A DNA stretch of 36,110 nt from a virus, in the IMG/VR virus record IMGVR_UViG_3300024999_000242, positions 1-36,110 of that record; one strand, 5' to 3'. Both the position numbers and the translations under genes were made by a program. How positions within the stretch are numbered: position 1 is the first letter of the stretch; every line of letters starts with the position of its first letter. The notes below the pieces were generated by a model. The model was not told where the DNA came from, ran no database searches, and saw nothing but the letters and a program-made list of their open reading frames with translations. Below, one piece after another: positions 14,270 to 32,647 of the stretch.

Positions 14270-15538
14270 TTATAGCCAATATATTTTATTAAATCTCCAT
14301 AATAATTTACAAGATTTAATTCCATATCTTCTTAGCGGTTTTCCATCTAAAGTAGTGAAGCTTAATGTTTTTCTCTCTGGTTGTAAAGATATTATCCAAC
14401 CAATATAGTTCTCATCATTTTTCTTGGTGTATTTAATTAAATCCCTATGCCTGAATCCTTCTAATTGCTCAACCTTTGCTTTTGATTGTCTCCTCATAGG
14501 TTTAATACTCCAATCTTTAATATCACATTGGTCTTGATTAACCTGTAATCCACTAATCACAATAGCATCATTAGAATGTGATTTTTTAATGTCCCAATCG
14601 ATTCTTCTATTAGCAGTCTCGCTACCAATTGTCAAACTTAATGGTGCAATTTTACCTAATTCTTGCCTAAGATAATTTTTACCTTGTATTACATGCATTG
14701 CATAATCAAATCTGATATTGCTACATTTAATTATAGACTGATATTTAGCAATAAATTTCTCTTCTACTCCCTCAGTTTTGTCATGACAACTTTCACATAA
14801 TGTAATTAAATTACCGATAATATCCGCACCTTTAAGTCTTTTAGATACAATATGGTGTACTTCCAACATACAATCTTTCTTACCACATTCTTGACATGTA
14901 TAATTATCTCTCATTAATGTAGCGATTCTTAGATTCTCATCTAATCTATTAGATTTCTGATATTGCCAACGATATAATTTACCGTCTTGCAACGCTCTAA
15001 TATCAATTTGTACATCTTCAAGATTTATCTTGTCAATCCTACACCATTTATTTAACCTATTAATTACTCTAAGAATAGCATCTTTCTTCTGTTTAATAGT
15101 TGGAGCAAGTCTATTAGTACGTCTAGATGATGCACGATTATTAAACCTAACTTTCCTGTATCGTTTGTGATGCCTATGATATCTACGATATCCTCTTCTA
15201 ACATCCATTAAGTGTTTTACATCGTTTCTTTGCTCAATTGTACCTTTGAATATAGCTTTATTTTTAGTTTTACATTGCTGAACAATAGCAATGCCAACAT
15301 GTTTGGAACCATCGTCAATACTGCAAATAAATTCAGATTCATCTTCTTCATTAACTTCTCTTTTAAGTTGAATTACCATAGGATATTTACTAACTAATAT
15401 AGCTTTTTGTTTTCTAATTAATATCCATGCTTTATTAATATTAGTTGGTACTAATTGTTTACCATTAATATCAATTACAAAACTATATTCTTTTTGTTTA
15501 GTTTCTTTAACATCTTTTAATTCATTAATTGTGGTCAT
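14270..15538 (-). CDS. iscB: IscB RNA-guided DNA endonuclease
   Basis: The protein is 422 residues, a full-length IscB, the ancestor-type relative of Cas9. In order: an N-terminal PLMP/RRXRR-type region (about 17-62, [22 protein letters not shown]); RuvC-I with Asp75 in [13 protein letters not shown]; an Arg-rich bridge helix (113-140); RuvC-II with Glu174 in INLEDVQID; a HNH domain (about 205-255) with CxxC at 215/218, His228-His229, Asn243 and CESCH; RuvC-III with His321 and Asp324 in HSNDAIVI; and a C-terminal TAM-interaction-like region (about 355-415, [17 protein letters not shown]). All catalytic residues seem present, so it should be active. IscB proteins use an upstream-encoded omega RNA to cut DNA next to a target-adjacent motif. 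AAAGGAG lies 11 nt before ATG 15538. No transposase is nearby. Confidence 0.93.
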
Positions 15539-21577: not shown

Positions 21578-24500
21578 CTAAATACTAACTGTTTTTATAT
21601 TTCTACTAATTCCACGCATACCCATAGTATCAACTAATTTATCTACTGCCTGATTTACTATAGTTTCTAATCGAGGCATTACCGTATTATCGACATTTCC
21701 GTTGATAGTTAATAAACTATCTATCTGTATATTCCCTTTATTATTCACAGAACTCAATTGTGGTAAAGTATTAGTCATAAATCTATTCATTTGAATTGGA
21801 TTTATTATTAATTCACCCTTCAACAATTTAGCAAATTCTTCATTAGTCTTTAATAATGGTAAACCTCCAACAAATCCAGAATCAATACCTTCATGATACA
21901 ACTTAACTGTACCCTTATACCAATGACCGTCATTCTTATAAATAGCACCGATTAACTTAGCTAATTCTTCATTTTCAGCATGAAGTCTTTCTTTTTCACT
22001 TTCTGAAGCACTAGTCCACTCTAATGAATTCATCTGCATTTGTGCTACAATAGCATCTTCATCAATTTCATTAAATGCATTTTCAACATCTATTACACCT
22101 AATTCTGTTTTATATGATTGTAATGCTGATTTAGCTTTATCCCATGCTGTTGAGATATCTTGTTCCACACTGGTTCCGTATAACTTGTTCCATTTTACTA
22201 AATTAGCATAAACACTATCTGACTGTGAATTTATCAATGCCATAGCATCAGCGGTTAATTGACCAGACTTATTTAGATAGTCCTGAATTGTTTGAATTTC
22301 ATCTTCTTTAGTATCTTTAAATTGTTCTAATTCAGTATCTAAAGCATCTTCTTGAAGTTGTATACTTCTATCATGTTGTGTTTCTTCTAAATCTGTTGTT
22401 AACTTTGCTAATTCTTCTTCAAGTTTTAATCTTTCTGCCTGTGATTCTCTACTATCATCAAGACTTAATTCAAGAAGTCTATTTTGAATTGTAGATATAC
22501 CCTTCTGTTTTTCAGAGATATCTTTTTCATAATCATGTTGTTCTTCAGTGAGTTTTAATTGTTCTTTTTTAGCATTAATGATTTTTTCATAAGCGTCAAT
22601 TTCTTCTTTAAGTGCGTTAATTTCGTCTTCTTTTTGTTGTTTAATCATTTTTTCAGTAAGGTCGATTACTTCTTGAATAGATTCTTTTTGTTGTTTGTAG
22701 AGGTCTTGTTGTTTTTCCACTGATGTAGTTATATCTTGATTAATGTCTTTACGTGTCTTTTCAATATCAGCAAGCTTCCCCTGTACCCCTAATATCTTCT
22801 CATTGAGTTCATCTTCTAAACCTTTAGACTTTGCTACATTACGCTGTGACTCGTAATAAGCAAGTAAGGATTTTTGTGCTTTTTCTTCTAAGTCAAGATT
22901 ATTCTTTCGTGCTTCATATTCTTCGTTAAGAAGATTATTAGATTTATTTTCTGCTTCTATTACTTTATTTTGATATTCTTGTTCTTTGGTAAGAATATCG
23001 GAGAGAGAGGTGTCTTTTTTAGATTTATCTGTCTTAGAAACATCAGTAACCAACTTTTTTATATCTACAGATTTTAATCCAAAGAAATTATCTAGTTGTT
23101 TATTTATACCTGCTTTAGCTGTTTCTAAAGCGGCTAGTTTATTTCCAAGATAATATTGTGCTTCAGGACTACCAGCATATTCAGCAGAAGCAATAAGTTC
23201 ATTAATCTGAAGTATTTTTTCTCCTAACTTAGACATAATAAACATCTTAGCTTGCTGTGCATTTTTAAAATTATCTACATCAGACTGATAAACCTTAAAA
23301 GTATTATTAAGATTATCTTTTAATAATGATATTTGTGAATTTAATGAATCTTGTACTGAAGTCACTTTATCATTTTGTAATTTTACAAGTTCACTATATA
23401 AAGATTTTTCATCATTAAGATATTGAAGAAGTGAAGGATATTTATCAATTAATGAAATTAACGTATCAGTAGAAAATTTACCAGTTTCTTTATATTCATC
23501 TAATGCTGAATTTATATCACTTATTGATTCTCTAGCTTCAATTATAGTTTTTGCTAAATCTCCAAAACTAATAGTTTGTGAATTTATTGCATTATTAACA
23601 TCATTGGTAGATTTAGATAGGTTGCTTTCTTGTAATATTACAGATTCTATTGCTTTTGCACGTTCAGTAAGTATTTTATATTCTTCTGAACCTTGTTCAT
23701 TAGATTCATCTAAAACCTTTATATTCTTTTGAATTTCACTATATTCTTTTGTAAGAGATTCAGTTTTTTCAGCAATCTTATTTTTTAAATCTTCATACGT
23801 TTTAGCAGAATTTTTATTATTATCATCTAAGTTTTTAATTTCTTCATTATATTTTTTTAATAAATCAATATCGTTATTGCTTTCTTCGCCATATATACTT
23901 CCAACTTCACTTCCGATAGTAAAAGCACTATCTGCTATTTTAGGAGAAGAATTATCACCATATTGTTTTCGTACAAGAAGTTTTGTCTCATAAGCTAAAT
24001 TATCCTTTAAAGCTTCCTTTTGTTTCTCTAGAATTTTTAAATATTTTTCTTCTTGTTCAGTACGATTTTCTTTTGCTAAAAGTTGGTCTTTAGTGGATTG
24101 AAGGTTTTTTAATTCATCGGATAAAGCTTGAACTTTTTCACGTTGTTCTTCTACTGTAACAATAAGTACATCAAAAGCTTTTACTACTGCATATATTCCT
24201 GCCGCTAAAGCCAAAGGTGCAAACATACCCAAAATTGTATTAAGCCTTAATGCGGCAATTCCAGCGATGCCTAAACTCTTTGTAAAACCAGATATAGCTA
24301 TAGTCGCAACATTAATTATTGGAGCAAGTATCATTGATTTACTAAATACTGTAAAATAAGTAATAGTAATAGCAACAACCACATTTAAAAGTCCGAGATA
24401 ATCAGTTAAATTAACGATTCCTGTACCTGCACTCACTACAAATTTTATAAAATCAGAACTAATAGCATTATTCCACATCATTTGAACGGAGCTTGTAAAT

Positions 24501-26155
24501 TTTGACATACGACCTTGAATACTATCAAGGTATTTAGCGTTTTCACGTTCTGCACTACCAAATGAGTTAATTGCCGCTTGTGTAGCTCCCTCAACACTTT
24601 GCCAATTTTGCATTATTGCATTTAATACAGGGGCTTGTCTAACTCCACTTGCTAATTCTCCTAAATATTGTTTTTGCTCATCATTAAGAGTACCCCATAC
24701 TTTTTGCATATCCGATAAAATATCAAAAGTACTTCTCAATTGACCATTTGTAGTTTGAATATCTACTCCAGCAATTTCTTTAAACCCTTGTTGAAGTTTT
24801 GGCATTAAACCATCAATTTCTTCTCCAATATCAGTTACTCCACGCAATCTTTGTGAAATTGTTATCAATCCAGAAGAAACCTTTTCCATATTCCTTAAAG
24901 ATTCATAACCACCTGTTAATAGTCCCGTTAATTGTTCAACACTTGTTCCTGTCTGTGCCAAAGTTCCAGAAGTTCTTTGAAGTCCATCAGTTAAATTATT
25001 TGTATCTACTGCATACTTGTTGGACACTTCATTGAGGAGGTCAATAACATGTGAAGTATTAGTAGCTTCCATTTGATAACCACGTAATACAGCTATAATT
25101 GACCCTGCGGCTTCTGTTACATCAGTAATACCATCACCTACATTAGTGAGAATTAAAGCTTGTTTACTTAAATCAAAAGATTCTTGTAAATCAAAACCAG
25201 CTTTTGCAAAGGTACTTGTTGCTTCTATGACATCTTTTCCTGTTCTGCCTATAGTAACTCCCATTTCATAAGCTTGGTCTGTGAATAATTTCATTTGTGT
25301 TTTTGAAATATCCGTCACTTTGTTGAGTTCGGTTAAACTTGCATCCAATTCGACAACTGTATTTATTCCTTCTCTTAAACTTCTCAAAGGGGCGTATAAA
25401 AGTGCCGCTGCTGCCGACCAAATGGCAAGTTTTCCCAAATCCTTTACAAAAGTTGTAGCAAATCTATCCGATTCTTTCATAACACGAGTTGTTGCTTTTC
25501 TTACCTCATTCATTCCAGCAGTAGCTTTGGCTGTTTGAATATCTATGGCTTTTGTCACATCACTTACTTGTTTTAAAGAAGTGTAATCACTAGCATTTAA
25601 GTTATTAACTCGTTTTGCAATCGAGGACATTTCTGTTTCGTTATAACTTTTACCATAAGTTGTTTTTAGATTTTGATTTTTTATAGCAAATAAATCTTTA
25701 TATTCAGCAATTTGCTTTTGAATTGTAGCATTTACTTGTTTCTCTGCTTCATTTTGTTTATTTATTGTATTAACAACATTTGTTTTTACATTCAATACAC
25801 CTGAATGTTCTTTTTCAGCTTTTGTTAACATCTGTACTAATTGTACTTGTTCTTTTTTAGTAAGATTAACAAACTCTTCTTGTTGTCTATATTTTGATGC
25901 AAGTTGTATATATTGTTGAGCATCTATTTGTTGGGTTTTTCTTAAATGATTTAACTCTTGTAAAGAAACATTTTGTTTATTTTGAGCCTGTGTAGTTTTT
26001 CTTGTTTGTTGTTCAGTCTGTTTCATTTGTTCATTAATTGTTGAATTAATTTTTACATCGAGTTTATATTTTTTAGATAAACTATCAAGATAACTAGAAT
26101 ACTCTTTTTCTAGTTCTTTTTTATTTATTAATTGCATTTTTACACCTAGTGCCAT
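21578..26155 (-). CDS. Tape measure protein
   Basis: The protein is 1525 residues. The N-terminal 230 residues are coiled coil (Gln/Lys-rich, ESDRFATTFVKDLGKLAIWSAAAALLYAPLR), followed by the TP901-type tape-measure core (LDASLTELNKVTDISKTQM, FAKAGFDLQESFDLSKQALILTN-like region). Several hydrophobic helices lie at about 570-670 (GIVNLTDYLGLLNVVVAITI, LAPLALAAGIYAVV type), then long coiled coils to about 1300. The C-terminus (YHEGIDSGFVGG, LLKGELIINPIQ) is a common tail end of these proteins. It sets tail length and helps DNA enter the cell; at 1525 residues a tail of roughly 200 nm or more would be expected by the usual rule. ATG 26155 follows GAGGTGG. Confidence 0.92.
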   Translation of the reverse strand: MALGVKMQLINKKELEKEYSSYLDSLSKKYKLDVKINSTINEQMKQTEQQTRKTTQAQNKQNVSLQELNHLRKTQQIDAQQYIQLASKYRQQEEFVNLTKKEQVQLVQMLTKAEKEHSGVLNVKTNVVNTINKQNEAEKQVNATIQKQIAEYKDLFAIKNQNLKTTYGKSYNETEMSSIAKRVNNLNASDYTSLKQVSDVTKAIDIQTAKATAGMNEVRKATTRVMKESDRFATTFVKDLGKLAIWSAAAALLYAPLRSLREGINTVVELDASLTELNKVTDISKTQMKLFTDQAYEMGVTIGRTGKDVIEATSTFAKAGFDLQESFDLSKQALILTNVGDGITDVTEAAGSIIAVLRGYQMEATNTSHVIDLLNEVSNKYAVDTNNLTDGLQRTSGTLAQTGTSVEQLTGLLTGGYESLRNMEKVSSGLITISQRLRGVTDIGEEIDGLMPKLQQGFKEIAGVDIQTTNGQLRSTFDILSDMQKVWGTLNDEQKQYLGELASGVRQAPVLNAIMQNWQSVEGATQAAINSFGSAERENAKYLDSIQGRMSKFTSSVQMMWNNAISSDFIKFVVSAGTGIVNLTDYLGLLNVVVAITITYFTVFSKSMILAPIINVATIAISGFTKSLGIAGIAALRLNTILGMFAPLALAAGIYAVVKAFDVLIVTVEEQREKVQALSDELKNLQSTKDQLLAKENRTEQEEKYLKILEKQKEALKDNLAYETKLLVRKQYGDNSSPKIADSAFTIGSEVGSIYGEESNNDIDLLKKYNEEIKNLDDNNKNSAKTYEDLKNKIAEKTESLTKEYSEIQKNIKVLDESNEQGSEEYKILTERAKAIESVILQESNLSKSTNDVNNAINSQTISFGDLAKTIIEARESISDINSALDEYKETGKFSTDTLISLIDKYPSLLQYLNDEKSLYSELVKLQNDKVTSVQDSLNSQISLLKDNLNNTFKVYQSDVDNFKNAQQAKMFIMSKLGEKILQINELIASAEYAGSPEAQYYLGNKLAALETAKAGINKQLDNFFGLKSVDIKKLVTDVSKTDKSKKDTSLSDILTKEQEYQNKVIEAENKSNNLLNEEYEARKNNLDLEEKAQKSLLAYYESQRNVAKSKGLEDELNEKILGVQGKLADIEKTRKDINQDITTSVEKQQDLYKQQKESIQEVIDLTEKMIKQQKEDEINALKEEIDAYEKIINAKKEQLKLTEEQHDYEKDISEKQKGISTIQNRLLELSLDDSRESQAERLKLEEELAKLTTDLEETQHDRSIQLQEDALDTELEQFKDTKEDEIQTIQDYLNKSGQLTADAMALINSQSDSVYANLVKWNKLYGTSVEQDISTAWDKAKSALQSYKTELGVIDVENAFNEIDEDAIVAQMQMNSLEWTSASESEKERLHAENEELAKLIGAIYKNDGHWYKGTVKLYHEGIDSGFVGGLPLLKTNEEFAKLLKGELIINPIQMNRFMTNTLPQLSSVNNKGNIQIDSLLTINGNVDNTVMPRLETIVNQAVDKLVDTMGMRGISRNIKTVSI

Positions 26156-26179: not shown

Positions 26180-26626
26180 TTATCTATAATTATCTAAATA
26201 ACCAATATTTCTATCATTGATTATCTCTACTTTTATTCCAAATTCTTTGCTTATCCTTTTTGCCGCCGACTCAATGAAATTACGAGCAGGATAATTATGA
26301 TACATATTATCAATACCTGTACTATCTTGATGTCCATAATTCAAATAAAAAGGAACATTCTTCGATTGGTTACTTCCGTCTACAACGGAGTAATAATCTA
26401 ATGCTCCTTCGTTAATGTATATCAACAATTCTCCATTTTCAGTTACCTTAGAATCCACAGATTCTAGTAAAGAGAAGGTGCGTTCATAGACCTCTGGTGT
26501 ATAGGAGTCATACACCAATCTCCCAATTTCTTCTCTTAATATCTGTTCACATCGTTTTTGAATGTCTTTAATAAATAAATTCATTTCATTTTGTATTTCT
26601 TTATCGGTAAGCAATGTTTTCACCAC
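26180..26626 (-). CDS. Phage structural/assembly protein upstream of the tape measure
   Basis: The protein is 148 residues. A helical start is followed by VYDSYTPEVYERTFSLLESVD, a strand pair (LLIYINEGALDYYSV) and a C-terminal part with HNYPARNFIESAAKRISKEF. The VYDSY-P-VY-RT motif is frequent in small proteins of Firmicute phage tail modules, possibly related in fold to tail completion (HK97 gp10) proteins, but that link is weak. It lies between the 181-aa gene and the tape measure, with a terminator upstream. Exact role unknown. Confidence 0.6.
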   Translation of the reverse strand: MVKTLLTDKEIQNEMNLFIKDIQKRCEQILREEIGRLVYDSYTPEVYERTFSLLESVDSKVTENGELLIYINEGALDYYSVVDGSNQSKNVPFYLNYGHQDSTGIDNMYHNYPARNFIESAAKRISKEFGIKVEIINDRNIGYLDNYR

Positions 26627-26636
26627 CTACAAATAT

Positions 26637-26668
26637 AAAACCCCTCCACAATTAAGTAGAGAGGTTTT
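26637..26668 (-). terminator. Terminator between the 181-aa and 148-aa tail genes
   Basis: AAAACCCCTC (26637-26646) pairs with GAGAGGTTTT (26659-26668), a 10-bp stem with one G-U pair and a 12-nt loop. On the - strand GGGGTTTTATATTT follows. It may reduce transcription into the 148-aa gene and tape measure. Confidence 0.7.
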
Positions 26669-27285: not shown

Positions 27286-27307
27286 AGAGTAGATTTTACT
27301 CTACTCT
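27286..27307 (-). terminator. Terminator at the end of the FxLYD gene
   Basis: AGAGTAGA (27286-27293) and TCTACTCT (27300-27307) form a perfect 8-bp stem with a 6-nt loop overlapping the stop codon. On the - strand CTTTTATTTG follows. It closes the cargo-type transcription unit 27296-28048. Confidence 0.8.
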
Positions 27308-28048
27308 TACATCATTTATAAATATTCGTACCTTGTCATATTGACTATCATGTTTATGCATAATCTCAAACTCTTTCATATTACCACTTCTAAGTGTTTC
27401 TCCACTGTTGGTATAGTCTGAATCGAGAACTTGACCTGCACTATCTAAATATTCAGCAGTTACCTCAAAATAACTTATGTTTTCATTACTTACGTTTTTA
27501 ACTCTACCTTTTACATAAGAATAATTTCCATCAACATCCCAAGTCCAACCACTTTGTATTTCTAATTTAGGTGGTTCAGGCATATATTCATTAATTATTT
27601 CTGCATATTGAGTATCAAAATTCTTATTATATTCTCTTATCTGATTTGCATTTCTTTTATCTATTAGTTTTGAACCTTCAATTTGAAGTAATGAAATTCT
27701 AGCATTAGTCCCTGCTCTATCCATTTTATCATTTATTTTTCCTAGTATTGGATTTAAAGAAAGTTTATCTCTTAAACTATCAACTTTTAAAATACACTCA
27801 ATATAATCTTTGTCATTACCACTCAATGTATTAATATCTATTGAATTCTTAAATGTTTCTATTTCTTTGTTTATATCATAAGGTTTATCATTTAAAATAT
27901 ATGGAAATATCTTTTGTTCATGTTCATTATATTTGTCTATTAAATTCTGACTTACTAAATTTGATTTGTAGTTTGAATAAACAATTACTCCTGTCAAAAC
28001 CAAAACAGTCAAAATCACAATAATACTAATAAACAATTTCTTTTTCAT
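27296..28048 (-). CDS. Membrane-anchored FxLYD-domain protein; probable prophage cargo gene
   Basis: The protein is 250 residues. An N-terminal membrane anchor (about 4-25, LFISIIVILTVLVLTGVIVY) is followed by a helical region and, from about 165, an FxLYD domain: VKGRVKNVSNENISYFEVTA, then LDSAGQVLDSD and a GNMKEFEI strand. FxLYD domains are extracellular beta-sandwich units on Gram-positive surface proteins. The gene has its own promoter, a terminator over its stop, and a leader whose inverted repeat would block translation from read-through RNA. These features suggest cargo expressed by the prophage rather than a virion part. Function unknown. Confidence 0.75.
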   Translation of the reverse strand: MKKKLFISIIVILTVLVLTGVIVYSNYKSNLVSQNLIDKYNEHEQKIFPYILNDKPYDINKEIETFKNSIDINTLSGNDKDYIECILKVDSLRDKLSLNPILGKINDKMDRAGTNARISLLQIEGSKLIDKRNANQIREYNKNFDTQYAEIINEYMPEPPKLEIQSGWTWDVDGNYSYVKGRVKNVSNENISYFEVTAEYLDSAGQVLDSDYTNSGETLRSGNMKEFEIMHKHDSQYDKVRIFINDVRVE

Positions 28049-28145
28049 AATAAAAACCTCCTTTAATTTACAATATAATCATACTATTTTTTTACATAAT
28101 TGTACAATTATATTATATTATATGTATTAAAGGAGGTTTTTATTA
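28048..28145 (-). promoter_or_regulatory. 20-bp inverted repeat that would mask the ribosome site in read-through RNA
   Basis: TAATAAAAACCTCCTTTAAT (28048-28067) and its exact reverse complement (28126-28145) flank a 58-nt AT-rich spacer. The - strand arm next to the gene carries AAAGGAGG, the FxLYD gene's ribosome site, and the distal arm carries its complement. RNA coming from upstream would contain both arms and hide the site. RNA starting in the spacer lacks the distal arm. Confidence 0.75.
28078..28107 (-). promoter_or_regulatory. Candidate promoter of the FxLYD gene, overlapped by a palindrome
   Basis: On the - strand TTGTAC (28107-28102) and TATGAT (28083-28078) are 18 nt apart. The start of RNA would fall near 28070, just before the ribosome-site arm. 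A perfect 16-bp palindrome, ATAATTGTACAATTAT (28096-28111), covers the -35 box and may be an operator. Confidence 0.55.
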
Positions 28146-28162
28146 ATTATATATTATTTAAT

Positions 28163-28459
28163 TTATTCAAACAAGCCATCCATAACTTCATCATTTTTAT
28201 AATGTACCAATATTAATGTATATATATCTTTACCTTTATCTTCATAGAAAAACTTTACTGCACCTTGACTATGACCTTTCCAATCGTATGACTTTTTCAT
28301 ATATTTATCAATAAGTTTTTTATATCTAGGAAGCAATTCTTCTTTAGAAGAATATAGTTCAACCTTTTGATTTATTAACTTAGGTTCATTACCACAACCT
28401 ATTTGAATTCTTTTATTTAAGTCAAAATCATTTATAATTATTTTCCAATCTTTATTCAT
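28163..28459 (-). CDS. Unknown phage protein, 98 aa
   Basis: I start at ATG 28459 (MNKDWKIIINDF), with AGAGAGGT upstream; it overlaps the previous stop by 8 nt. The protein begins DWKIIINDFDLNKRIQIGCG, has a charged helical centre and ends with KDIYTLILVHYKNDEV. It is a compact alpha/beta protein without membrane segments. It is second in a two-gene operon under a consensus promoter next to the XRE regulator, so it may belong to lysogeny control or to cargo. No family is recognised. Confidence 0.55.
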   Translation of the reverse strand: MNKDWKIIINDFDLNKRIQIGCGNEPKLINQKVELYSSKEELLPRYKKLIDKYMKKSYDWKGHSQGAVKFFYEDKGKDIYTLILVHYKNDEVMDGLFE

Positions 28460-28730
28460 ATTTAACCTCTCTAATCTCACTAATCAAAGCCTTATTAATA
28501 TCTTCTGTCAAAATCACATCAACTTTTTCTTCAAGTTCTTCTTGAACAAACAGCTCCTTAATTCTAAGCCTACAAACATCTTCTTTAGCTTTTCTGTAAG
28601 TGTAGTTGATAATATCTACCCAACTATAAGGAAGTTTTTCATAATAGTAATTTTCAATCAATCCCAAACTGTAGTCAGTATCCATTTCACGAAGTTGAAG
28701 TCTTTCAAGGTTTTCTATAGTTCTATCCAT
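28452..28730 (-). CDS. Unknown phage protein, 92 aa
   Basis: I start at ATG 28730 (MDRTIENLERLQ), since AAGGGG is 8 nt upstream. The protein is acidic and helical: DYSLGLIENYYYEKLPYSWVD, then YRKAKEDVCRLRIKELF and a C-terminal EDINKALISEIREV. It is the first gene after the strong promoter at 28781-28809 with an operator-like repeat, the usual place of an early lytic or immunity gene controlled by the neighbouring regulator. No family is recognised. Confidence 0.55.
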   Translation of the reverse strand: MDRTIENLERLQLREMDTDYSLGLIENYYYEKLPYSWVDIINYTYRKAKEDVCRLRIKELFVQEELEEKVDVILTEDINKALISEIREVKYE

Positions 28731-28770: not shown

Positions 28771-28780
28771 TTACAAGTAT

Positions 28781-28809
28781 ATTATAAAAGGAATATTTCA
28801 ATATGTCAA
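28781..28809 (-). promoter_or_regulatory. Perfect sigma-A promoter for the 92-aa/98-aa operon
   Basis: On the - strand TTGACA (28809-28804) and TATAAT (28786-28781) match consensus fully with a 17-nt spacer. No terminator separates this operon from the FxLYD gene, so read-through is expected. Confidence 0.88.
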
Positions 28810-28860: not shown

Positions 28861-29406
28861 CTATCTGAGTAATAAAATTTCAAAAGCAAATCTATTATCT
28901 CTGTAATTATCTAAAAAATCATCTGCCAAAATCTGAAATTCTTGTATACCAAAATTATCAATAAACTTAGTTTTCTTATCTTGATATACTATTCTCAATA
29001 CATCCTCAGTTAAAGTACCTCTTTGATATAATTCATAAACTTGCTTAAAATCATTCAACATTTTTTCAAACTCATCTACCGAATACAAAAATTCTTCGGA
29101 TTCTTTATAGAAAATCTTCTCAACTGTAGTATTCAAAAACTTAGCAATATCTAAAGCTGTTGATAATGTTGCGTTTTGATACATATTTACTATATTGGAA
29201 AGTGTTGTTTTAGATATTCCTATTCCTTCTGCTAATTCTGTTTGAGACATGTTTTTTTCTGCTATAATTACTTTAAGTCTATTTTTTACAATATTAAAAT
29301 CAGGCTTATCTAACTCTGGTAGTAATGGCTGTAAATTCCCACCTAATTTTTCCTTTCCGCTATTATCTATTACTTTTTCAATATCTTTTTTCTTTATTTT
29401 ACTCAT
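28861..29406 (-). CDS. XRE-family (HTH_3) transcriptional regulator
   Basis: The start is ATG 29406 (MSKIKKKDIEKV), with AAAGGTG upstream; the longer frame lacks a site. The 181-residue protein has a Lys-rich leader, then a Cro/CI-type helix-turn-helix at about 42-100 (IIAEKNMSQTELAEGIGIS, then TLSNIVNMYQNATLSTALD), and an acidic helical C-terminal region that could dimerise. No peptidase motif is visible. It is flanked by two good promoters with inverted repeats, as expected for a phage repressor that controls itself and the neighbouring operon. Whether it is the main immunity repressor is unknown. Confidence 0.85.
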   Translation of the reverse strand: MSKIKKKDIEKVIDNSGKEKLGGNLQPLLPELDKPDFNIVKNRLKVIIAEKNMSQTELAEGIGISKTTLSNIVNMYQNATLSTALDIAKFLNTTVEKIFYKESEEFLYSVDEFEKMLNDFKQVYELYQRGTLTEDVLRIVYQDKKTKFIDNFGIQEFQILADDFLDNYRDNRFAFEILLLR

Positions 29407-29431: not shown

Positions 29432-29460
29432 ATTATACTAGATAATATGTATTTTCTCAA
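29432..29460 (-). promoter_or_regulatory. Promoter of the XRE regulator
   Basis: On the - strand TTGAGA (29460-29455) and TATAAT (29437-29432) are 17 nt apart, 5/6 and 6/6 matches. RNA would start about 20 nt before the start codon's ribosome site. Confidence 0.8.
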
Positions 29461-29488
29461 TCAGAAAGATGTGTTGTTATGTAAAAGT

Positions 29489-31621: not shown

Positions 31622-32647
31622 CTAACTTTTGCTTGCGTTTATATTTCCAAATATCTTATTCTTTTCTTCTTCATGACTTCTTAAATCATAAAATTTCGAT
31701 GTAGTTGAGGTATCCTCATGTTGAGCTACAAACTCAGAAACAAGACTTAATTCTACACCAGTTTCAAGCAAGTAAGTTATGCAACTAGATTTAAAAAGAT
31801 GGGGATTTATGCGTCTTTGACAGATTTCAGATAATAAATTCTGACATAAAGCATTTGCCCATGTTTCGGATATGTGATGTATTTCTCCACCATATTTAAC
31901 CGCAAATATATATTCATTTTCAAATGGTCTATTTTCTATCCAAAGTCTTATATACTTTAGAGCTTCAAGGTTGACCATGTATTTTAAAGGCTTGCCATCA
32001 GCCGATTTCCCTTTTCCTCTTACCAAATTGCTTAATACATAATTCTGTCCATCAGGAATAGGATAGTTTATAATTTCTGTTTTAAACTGTATTATCTCTG
32101 CCCTTCGACTTCCAACATTAAATGCCACAGCAACCCAAGCTAAATATAAATATTCTTTTTTCTCTAATAAATACTCAACCATTTTTTCATATTCTTCTTT
32201 TGTTATAGCAATTTTATTATATGTTTGAGTCTTTGAGATAGAGGGGAGTCCTCTTGTGTAATTACGAAACCCCTTACACTGTGTCATTTCTTCATCATCT
32301 GCAACTACGTTTTCAATATAATTATTAAAACTAGATACACTTGATTTTCTTAATCCTTTTGCATTTGAAGACATTCCTCTTTCTTCTAACATACTCATAT
32401 ATTTCAAGAAATCTCTTTTAGTAATTTTATAATATGGTTTGTTATTTAGGTTTTTACAAACCCAATAAAAATATTGTTTTAAATTTGAAGTATATGTCCC
32501 TCGTGTCTTTTTTGAAAGTTGACTGTTTGAATCAAAATATTCTTTAAACATTTGTCGATTCTCTTCTAGCACTTCACTCCACATTGCGTCTGTAATATCA
32601 GGTAATTTATCTGCAACTTCACGCAACATATTTTTATTTATTGTCAT
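31622..32647 (-). CDS. Tyrosine-recombinase family protein with HxxK instead of HxxR
   Basis: The protein is 341 residues. Residues about 25-120 form a SAM-like core-binding domain (KKTRGTYTSNLKQYFYWVC). The catalytic domain has Arg near 181 (NVGSRRAEII), Lys212 or 214 (RGKGKSADGK), His283, His310 (VAQHED) and Tyr320 (SKFYDLR). The second catalytic Arg of the HxxR box is Lys286 here (PHLFKSSC). The phage already has a serine integrase, and this gene sits beside repressor-like genes. In SPbeta the master repressor MrpR (YopR) has a tyrosine-recombinase fold without recombinase activity, so a regulatory role is a real alternative to resolution or integration. Fold certain; activity uncertain. 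Confidence 0.85.
   Translation of the reverse strand: MTINKNMLREVADKLPDITDAMWSEVLEENRQMFKEYFDSNSQLSKKTRGTYTSNLKQYFYWVCKNLNNKPYYKITKRDFLKYMSMLEERGMSSNAKGLRKSSVSSFNNYIENVVADDEEMTQCKGFRNYTRGLPSISKTQTYNKIAITKEEYEKMVEYLLEKKEYLYLAWVAVAFNVGSRRAEIIQFKTEIINYPIPDGQNYVLSNLVRGKGKSADGKPLKYMVNLEALKYIRLWIENRPFENEYIFAVKYGGEIHHISETWANALCQNLLSEICQRRINPHLFKSSCITYLLETGVELSLVSEFVAQHEDTSTTSKFYDLRSHEEEKNKIFGNINASKS

Follow-up and report, generated by a model that had tools for sequence, protein, structure and literature searches.

In IS10/Tn10 and IS50, external read-through RNA folds over the start region of the transposase gene and is thereby translationally inert, a process termed fold-back inhibition. A comparable hairpin is found in phage T4, where a long, upstream-initiated RNA hides the Shine–Dalgarno sequence (SD) of gene e, as well as those of soc and 49 (PMC3014915). 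The DNA that encodes the 5' strand of this hairpin also contains the promoter of gene e, so that RNA from this promoter is free, and lysozyme synthesis from the long RNA is lowered 100-fold (PMC3014915). The homing endonuclease genes I-TevI, segB and mobE of Aeh1, all from T4-type phages, are embedded as cargo within another transcription unit; a hairpin sequesters the SD, and the promoter is internal (PMC2988022). Here, we describe an inverted repeat (28048–28145) at the start of a gene for an FxLYD protein, located in a 36,110-nt stretch of viral DNA (IMG/VR record IMGVR_UViG_3300024999_000242, positions 1 to 36,110; the whole stretch is termed the window). As judged from folding predictions, this repeat is probably an isoform-specific translational switch for the FxLYD gene. 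Its in silico basis consists of the repeat itself, the folding difference between long and short RNAs, the conserved layout and the synteny; promoter activity, actual read-through in this phage, loss of translation and the timing in lysogeny and late infection are inferred.

The inverted repeat and the ribosome site

The element consists of the following parts:
28126 to 28145, minus strand: 5' (upstream) arm, in RNA sense the complement of the SD (anti-SD), TAATAAAAACCTCCTTTAAT
28068 to 28125, minus strand: loop between the arms, 58 nt, with imperfect self-complementarity
28096 to 28111, no strand: perfect 16-bp palindrome ATAATTGTACAATTAT in the loop, a possible operator, with no second copy in the window
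28048 to 28067, minus strand: 3' arm, ATTAAAGGAGGTTTTTATTA, holding the SD of the FxLYD gene; its final base is the A of the ATG
27296 to 28048, minus strand: cargo gene for a membrane protein of 250 amino acids, with a hydrophobic N terminus and a C-terminal FxLYD domain

In the minus-strand RNA, gene 28163–28480 is followed by the 5' arm, the 58-nt loop, the 3' arm and the FxLYD start codon. The first-pass annotation had described a perfect 20-bp inverted repeat with the ribosome site in one arm, and this holds: the arms are complementary at 20/20 positions, the 3' arm contains the SD AAAGGAGG, and the 5' arm, 58 nt upstream, the complement of this SD. The product had likewise been named an FxLYD protein, in agreement with a match to NCBIfam NF038353 above the cut-off (E = 2.5e-10). 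The whole window contains two perfect inverted repeats with arms of at least 13 bp and at most 200 nt between them (20 and 13 bp), and after dinucleotide shuffling (60 shuffled windows) the longest arm had a mean of 12.5 and a maximum of 15. The RNA fold of the repeat region amounts to −35.4 kcal/mol (z = −7.5), and the whole 98 bp are about 80% identical to their own reverse complement. An Rfam scan gave no family reaching its cut-off, and plasmid matches to the repeat region by blast were short and partial, covering about one quarter to one third of the query.

The predicted accessibility of the SD depends strongly on the RNA in which it is embedded. In a read-through RNA starting 150 nt upstream, GGAGG has an unpaired probability of 0.00 and an opening cost of 18.3 kcal/mol, as opposed to 0.51–0.57 and 2.0–2.7 kcal/mol in RNAs starting at about 28109 or 28070, the candidate own-promoter starts. 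For 149 random control genes, the mean opening cost is 1.9 and the 95th percentile 4.4 kcal/mol. Among 530 genes of the window and of a 349-kb phage contig (L003), the FxLYD gene ranks first for pairing of the SD to upstream sequence (z = −9.4; p = 0.0002, the lowest value attainable with 5000 shuffles). The stable hairpin with the SD in its 3' arm is predicted to form only in the longer RNA.

A palindrome of chance or mutational origin that does not affect translation, whether an inverted duplication or an operator dyad, is quite improbable as the source of this arrangement. It could draw on the perfect palindrome in the loop as an operator and on template switching, which can generate inverted duplications. 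However, the arm length is far above that of the shuffles, the repeat is precisely aligned to the SD and the start codon, and the layout recurs with different sequences. A divergent gene as the source of the second SD-like arm was considered and rejected; no plus-strand open reading frame of at least 60 amino acids begins there.

In the proposed mechanism, RNA entering from upstream, either from the operon promoter at 28809 or from the late tail operon, would carry the anti-SD arm, and the 20-bp helix that this arm forms with the SD would keep ribosomes off the FxLYD gene. RNA initiated between the arms would lack the 5' arm, leave the SD open and permit translation. In this way, the membrane-anchored cargo protein would be made only from the promoter of its own gene, which is probably active in the lysogen, and would be kept off while late genes are transcribed through the island.

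Promoters, read-through and the cargo island

The transcription signals around the gene are:
28117 to 28146, minus strand: candidate promoter 1, TTAATA-18-TATAAT (10/12 consensus matches), with a putative start past the 5' arm, near 28109
28078 to 28106, minus strand: candidate promoter 2, TGTACA-17-TATGAT (9/12), with a putative start near 28070
28781 to 28809, minus strand: perfect consensus promoter TTGACA-17-TATAAT of the upstream two-gene operon
28452 to 28730, minus strand: first gene of this operon, with ATG 28730 as its likely start
27286 to 27307, minus strand: hairpin resembling an intrinsic terminator, at the end of the FxLYD gene

The −35 element of promoter 1 begins at 28146, one base outside the 5' arm, and overlaps the arm. 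By their positions, both loop promoters would initiate RNA downstream of it. On the opposite strand, the loop holds a further match (28091–28119, TTTACA-17-TATATT, 10/12), whose RNA would be antisense to the upstream operon. Of the annotated transcription signals, the upstream operon with its perfect consensus promoter and without a terminator before the cargo gene was recovered by promoter inspection and terminator scan, the latter giving no conventional terminator between the 28809–28781 promoter and the cargo gene. The candidate promoter in the loop is present as two consensus matches, yet these are weaker than had been implied. Because of the perfect promoter upstream and the lack of a conventional terminator in between, read-through into the FxLYD gene is likely from at least the 28809 promoter.

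The hairpin might itself be an intrinsic terminator containing the SD, so that upstream transcripts would end at GGAGGTTTTT and insulation would be transcriptional. An A-tract, CCTCC/GGAGG and a T-tract around the stem fit such a function, and the loop also folds. We nevertheless regard it as unlikely: the loop is 58 nt long and A/T-rich, the terminator scan (loops limited to 3–8) made no call here, no T-tract follows the stem in the relatives that keep the SD pairing (L003, AGAAGGAGAGATAAAAATG; the homologue family described below, GAGGAGATACAT; L074, AAGGAAGGTGTTAAT), and a terminator-like hairpin is already present 3' of the FxLYD gene (27307–27286). Elsewhere in the window, a strong hairpin CCTCTCTAC/GTGGAGGGG with a T-run (26641–26665) lies directly upstream of gene 26180–26626; expression of the late genes past the island would, therefore, depend on antitermination, on a polymerase insensitive to terminators or on another promoter.

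Alternatively, the repeat could flank an invertible promoter that is flipped by a recombinase, resulting in phase variation, and YomM could be that recombinase. A perfect 20-bp repeat does enclose a promoter-containing segment, the plus strand of the loop carries the good match given above, and a tyrosine-recombinase homologue is encoded 3.5 kb away. Against this, the arms of the related FxLYD locus are unrelated in sequence and, hence, offer no common crossover site, an element 80% identical to its own inverse would be altered little by flipping, no other copy of the exact arm pair was found in IMG/VR, and YomM occurs in many relatives, SPbeta included. Such an inversion is highly improbable. 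Both the terminator and the invertible-promoter explanations fit worse than the translational switch.

The window is a fragment of an SPbeta-like phage and contains homologues of yomM, yomI, yomH and yomG in this order, with its distal-tail and tail-associated genes matching yomH and yomG. The cargo island is delimited as follows:
31622 to 32647, minus strand: YomM homologue, 56% identical to SPbeta YomM, the upstream border of the island
28861 to 29406, minus strand: Cro/CI-type helix-turn-helix (HTH) gene of the island
21578 to 26155, minus strand: yomI-like tape-measure protein, the downstream border of the island

Between yomM and yomI, SPbeta carries yomL, yomK and yomJ, the last of which encodes an immunity-type protein, the d protein (PMC8270828). 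The island genes of the window have the same orientation as the late genes. The late cluster of SPbeta is described as a single operon transcribed by the phage polymerase YonO (PMC8270828; PMC5467207), which is highly processive and bypasses pause signals (PMC5467207). Since the island occupies the place of yomL, yomK and yomJ within a cluster that SPbeta transcribes as one operon, read-through during late transcription is plausible by analogy. YonO was found in 4 of 10 records of relatives. No DNA relatives of the island were found among annotated phages and no relatives of the two operon proteins or of the HTH protein, and searches of genome contigs with the FxLYD protein gave no match. In the tail module, the protein of 14270–15538 looks IscB-like, with an HNH-like motif and, at its N terminus, a region of the RRxxRRxR type.

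The layout in relatives and at neighboring genes

The sole related FxLYD gene found is that of the L003 contig, with an identity of 36% overall and 59% in the best segment. Its arms CTCCTTTTCAGT/ACTGAGAAGGAG, which include one G–U pair, flank TTGCAT-16-TATAAT and are unrelated in sequence to those of the window. The pairing has p = 0.003, and opening of the SD costs 10.9 kcal/mol in the long RNA vs 1.3 kcal/mol. As read from these sequences, the L003 gene keeps the design of the window with a different arm sequence. Terminase-like genes occur twice in this contig (L005–L022; near 93.5 and 250 kb), and so do YopR-like genes; the contig possibly represents two joined phages or a very large SPbeta relative.

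Two further genes of the island carry an anti-SD arm in or beside their promoters; examples such as these, outside the homology-selected sets, were noticed for their high scores, and their p-values are descriptive:
28777 to 28805, minus strand: anti-SD arm of gene 28452–28730, within its promoter, from the −35 to just past the −10 (p = 0.0018)
29461 to 29481, minus strand: anti-SD arm of the HTH gene, abutting the upstream side of the −35 (TTGAGA from 29460, TATAAT ending at 29432; p = 0.013)

For 61 IMG/VR YomM loci, in a test that was defined before inspection and left out the window and L003, island genes have lower SD pairing energies than the remaining genes (p = 0.011). The strongest cases are membrane proteins or lipoproteins (L074 12560, z = −6.0; L060 17632, z = −4.5) and HTH-associated small proteins. 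One such island gene family was gathered by protein similarity from 14 loci with 11 distinct leaders, a placement in the tail module being possible for only part of the loci. All 11 leaders combine a promoter matching at 10–12 of 12 positions with a CCTC-type anti-SD just before or in the −10. Opening in the long RNA costs 4.0–9.3, and in the own-promoter RNA 0–1.1 for 10 leaders and 4.2 for the eleventh (down from 6.2). The combined p for the nine non-seed leaders is 6e-5, with relatedness ignored, and the consensus helix computed by RNAalifold falls unprompted at the SD/anti-SD pair.

In two Clostridioides difficile phages, phiCD27 (L025 16621) and phiCD418 (L104 1642), a membrane gene after the tape measure has its anti-SD in an extended −10 promoter; the arms differ together between the two phages (z = −3.7 and −5.5). 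A second phiCD27 gene (L025 46878) has a stronger arm still (z = −7.2). Many of the phages with an anti-SD leader, including the window (28774–28730) and the L090–L103 leaders, have an inner stem or operator-like dyad of the GTAAGGTAAAACTTAC type 3' of the −10, where the promoter follows an HTH gene. The HTH protein may bind at this dyad.

A broader rule, with anti-SD arms at all strong-promoter genes that are transcribed from upstream, gave p = 0.002 in the window and L003 post hoc and was dropped; not every gene with a promoter shows the anti-SD pattern.

Several observations weigh against a translational switch. The rule just mentioned failed in SPbeta, TR-TP1 and phiCD27, and a comparison of long and short RNA for SPbeta yomJ gave no difference and no SD fold-back. 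The loop promoters match the consensus at only 9–10 of 12 positions, and YonO was not detectable in the 36-kb window fragment or in the L003 phage. Covariation in the 12-sequence homologue alignment is not significant, with too few compensatory changes, because the SD and the −10 are conserved for reasons of their own. The hairpin may also have an added terminator function. The annotated fold-back silencing in read-through RNA only is, on balance, supported computationally by the opening costs (18.3 vs 2.0–2.7 kcal/mol), the L003 layout, the recurrence of the design in the island and in island genes of related phages, and the synteny, with the moderate loop promoter as its weaker part.

More tentatively, low-GC SPbeta-like phages might systematically shield cargo and immunity genes in late operons by placing the SD complement in or beside the gene's own promoter, which would tag late read-through as untranslatable; this is possible, but we would not expect it on present evidence. 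If true, such tagging would be needed where the late polymerase ignores terminators.

Comparison with described systems

The textbook isolation of phage cargo genes relies on terminators and separate promoters. At this locus, isolation would instead be translational, with its determinant written into the promoter or next to it. This would account for the presence of lysogeny or immunity genes inside a late operon without their expression during lysis. An anti-SD next to a −35 or −10 would, furthermore, serve as a sequence signature for locating phage cargo genes and their true starts.

Compared with IS10/Tn10 and IS50, there is no transposase and there are no element ends, and the arm overlaps the cargo promoter or directly adjoins it. 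The yomL/yomK/yomJ island of SPbeta has the same position and neighbors (yomM, yomI), whereas its genes differ. In contrast to I-TevI, segB and mobE, the cargo consists of a membrane FxLYD protein, an HTH regulator and small proteins, with no nuclease, and the promoters are sigma-A-like, several of them carrying the anti-SD themselves. The closest likeness is to T4 gene e, with a closed long RNA and an open RNA from the internal promoter, both predicted here. T4, however, silences late genes on early RNA by means of T4 late promoters. The gene that would be silenced here, on upstream, probably late, RNA, is cargo of a Gram-positive SPbeta-like phage and has a promoter of the host type. The mechanism is, thus, known from T4 and would be extended to Gram-positive temperate phages; apparently new are the host class, the type of cargo, an anti-SD that is part of the promoter or adjoins it, and the reversal of timing.
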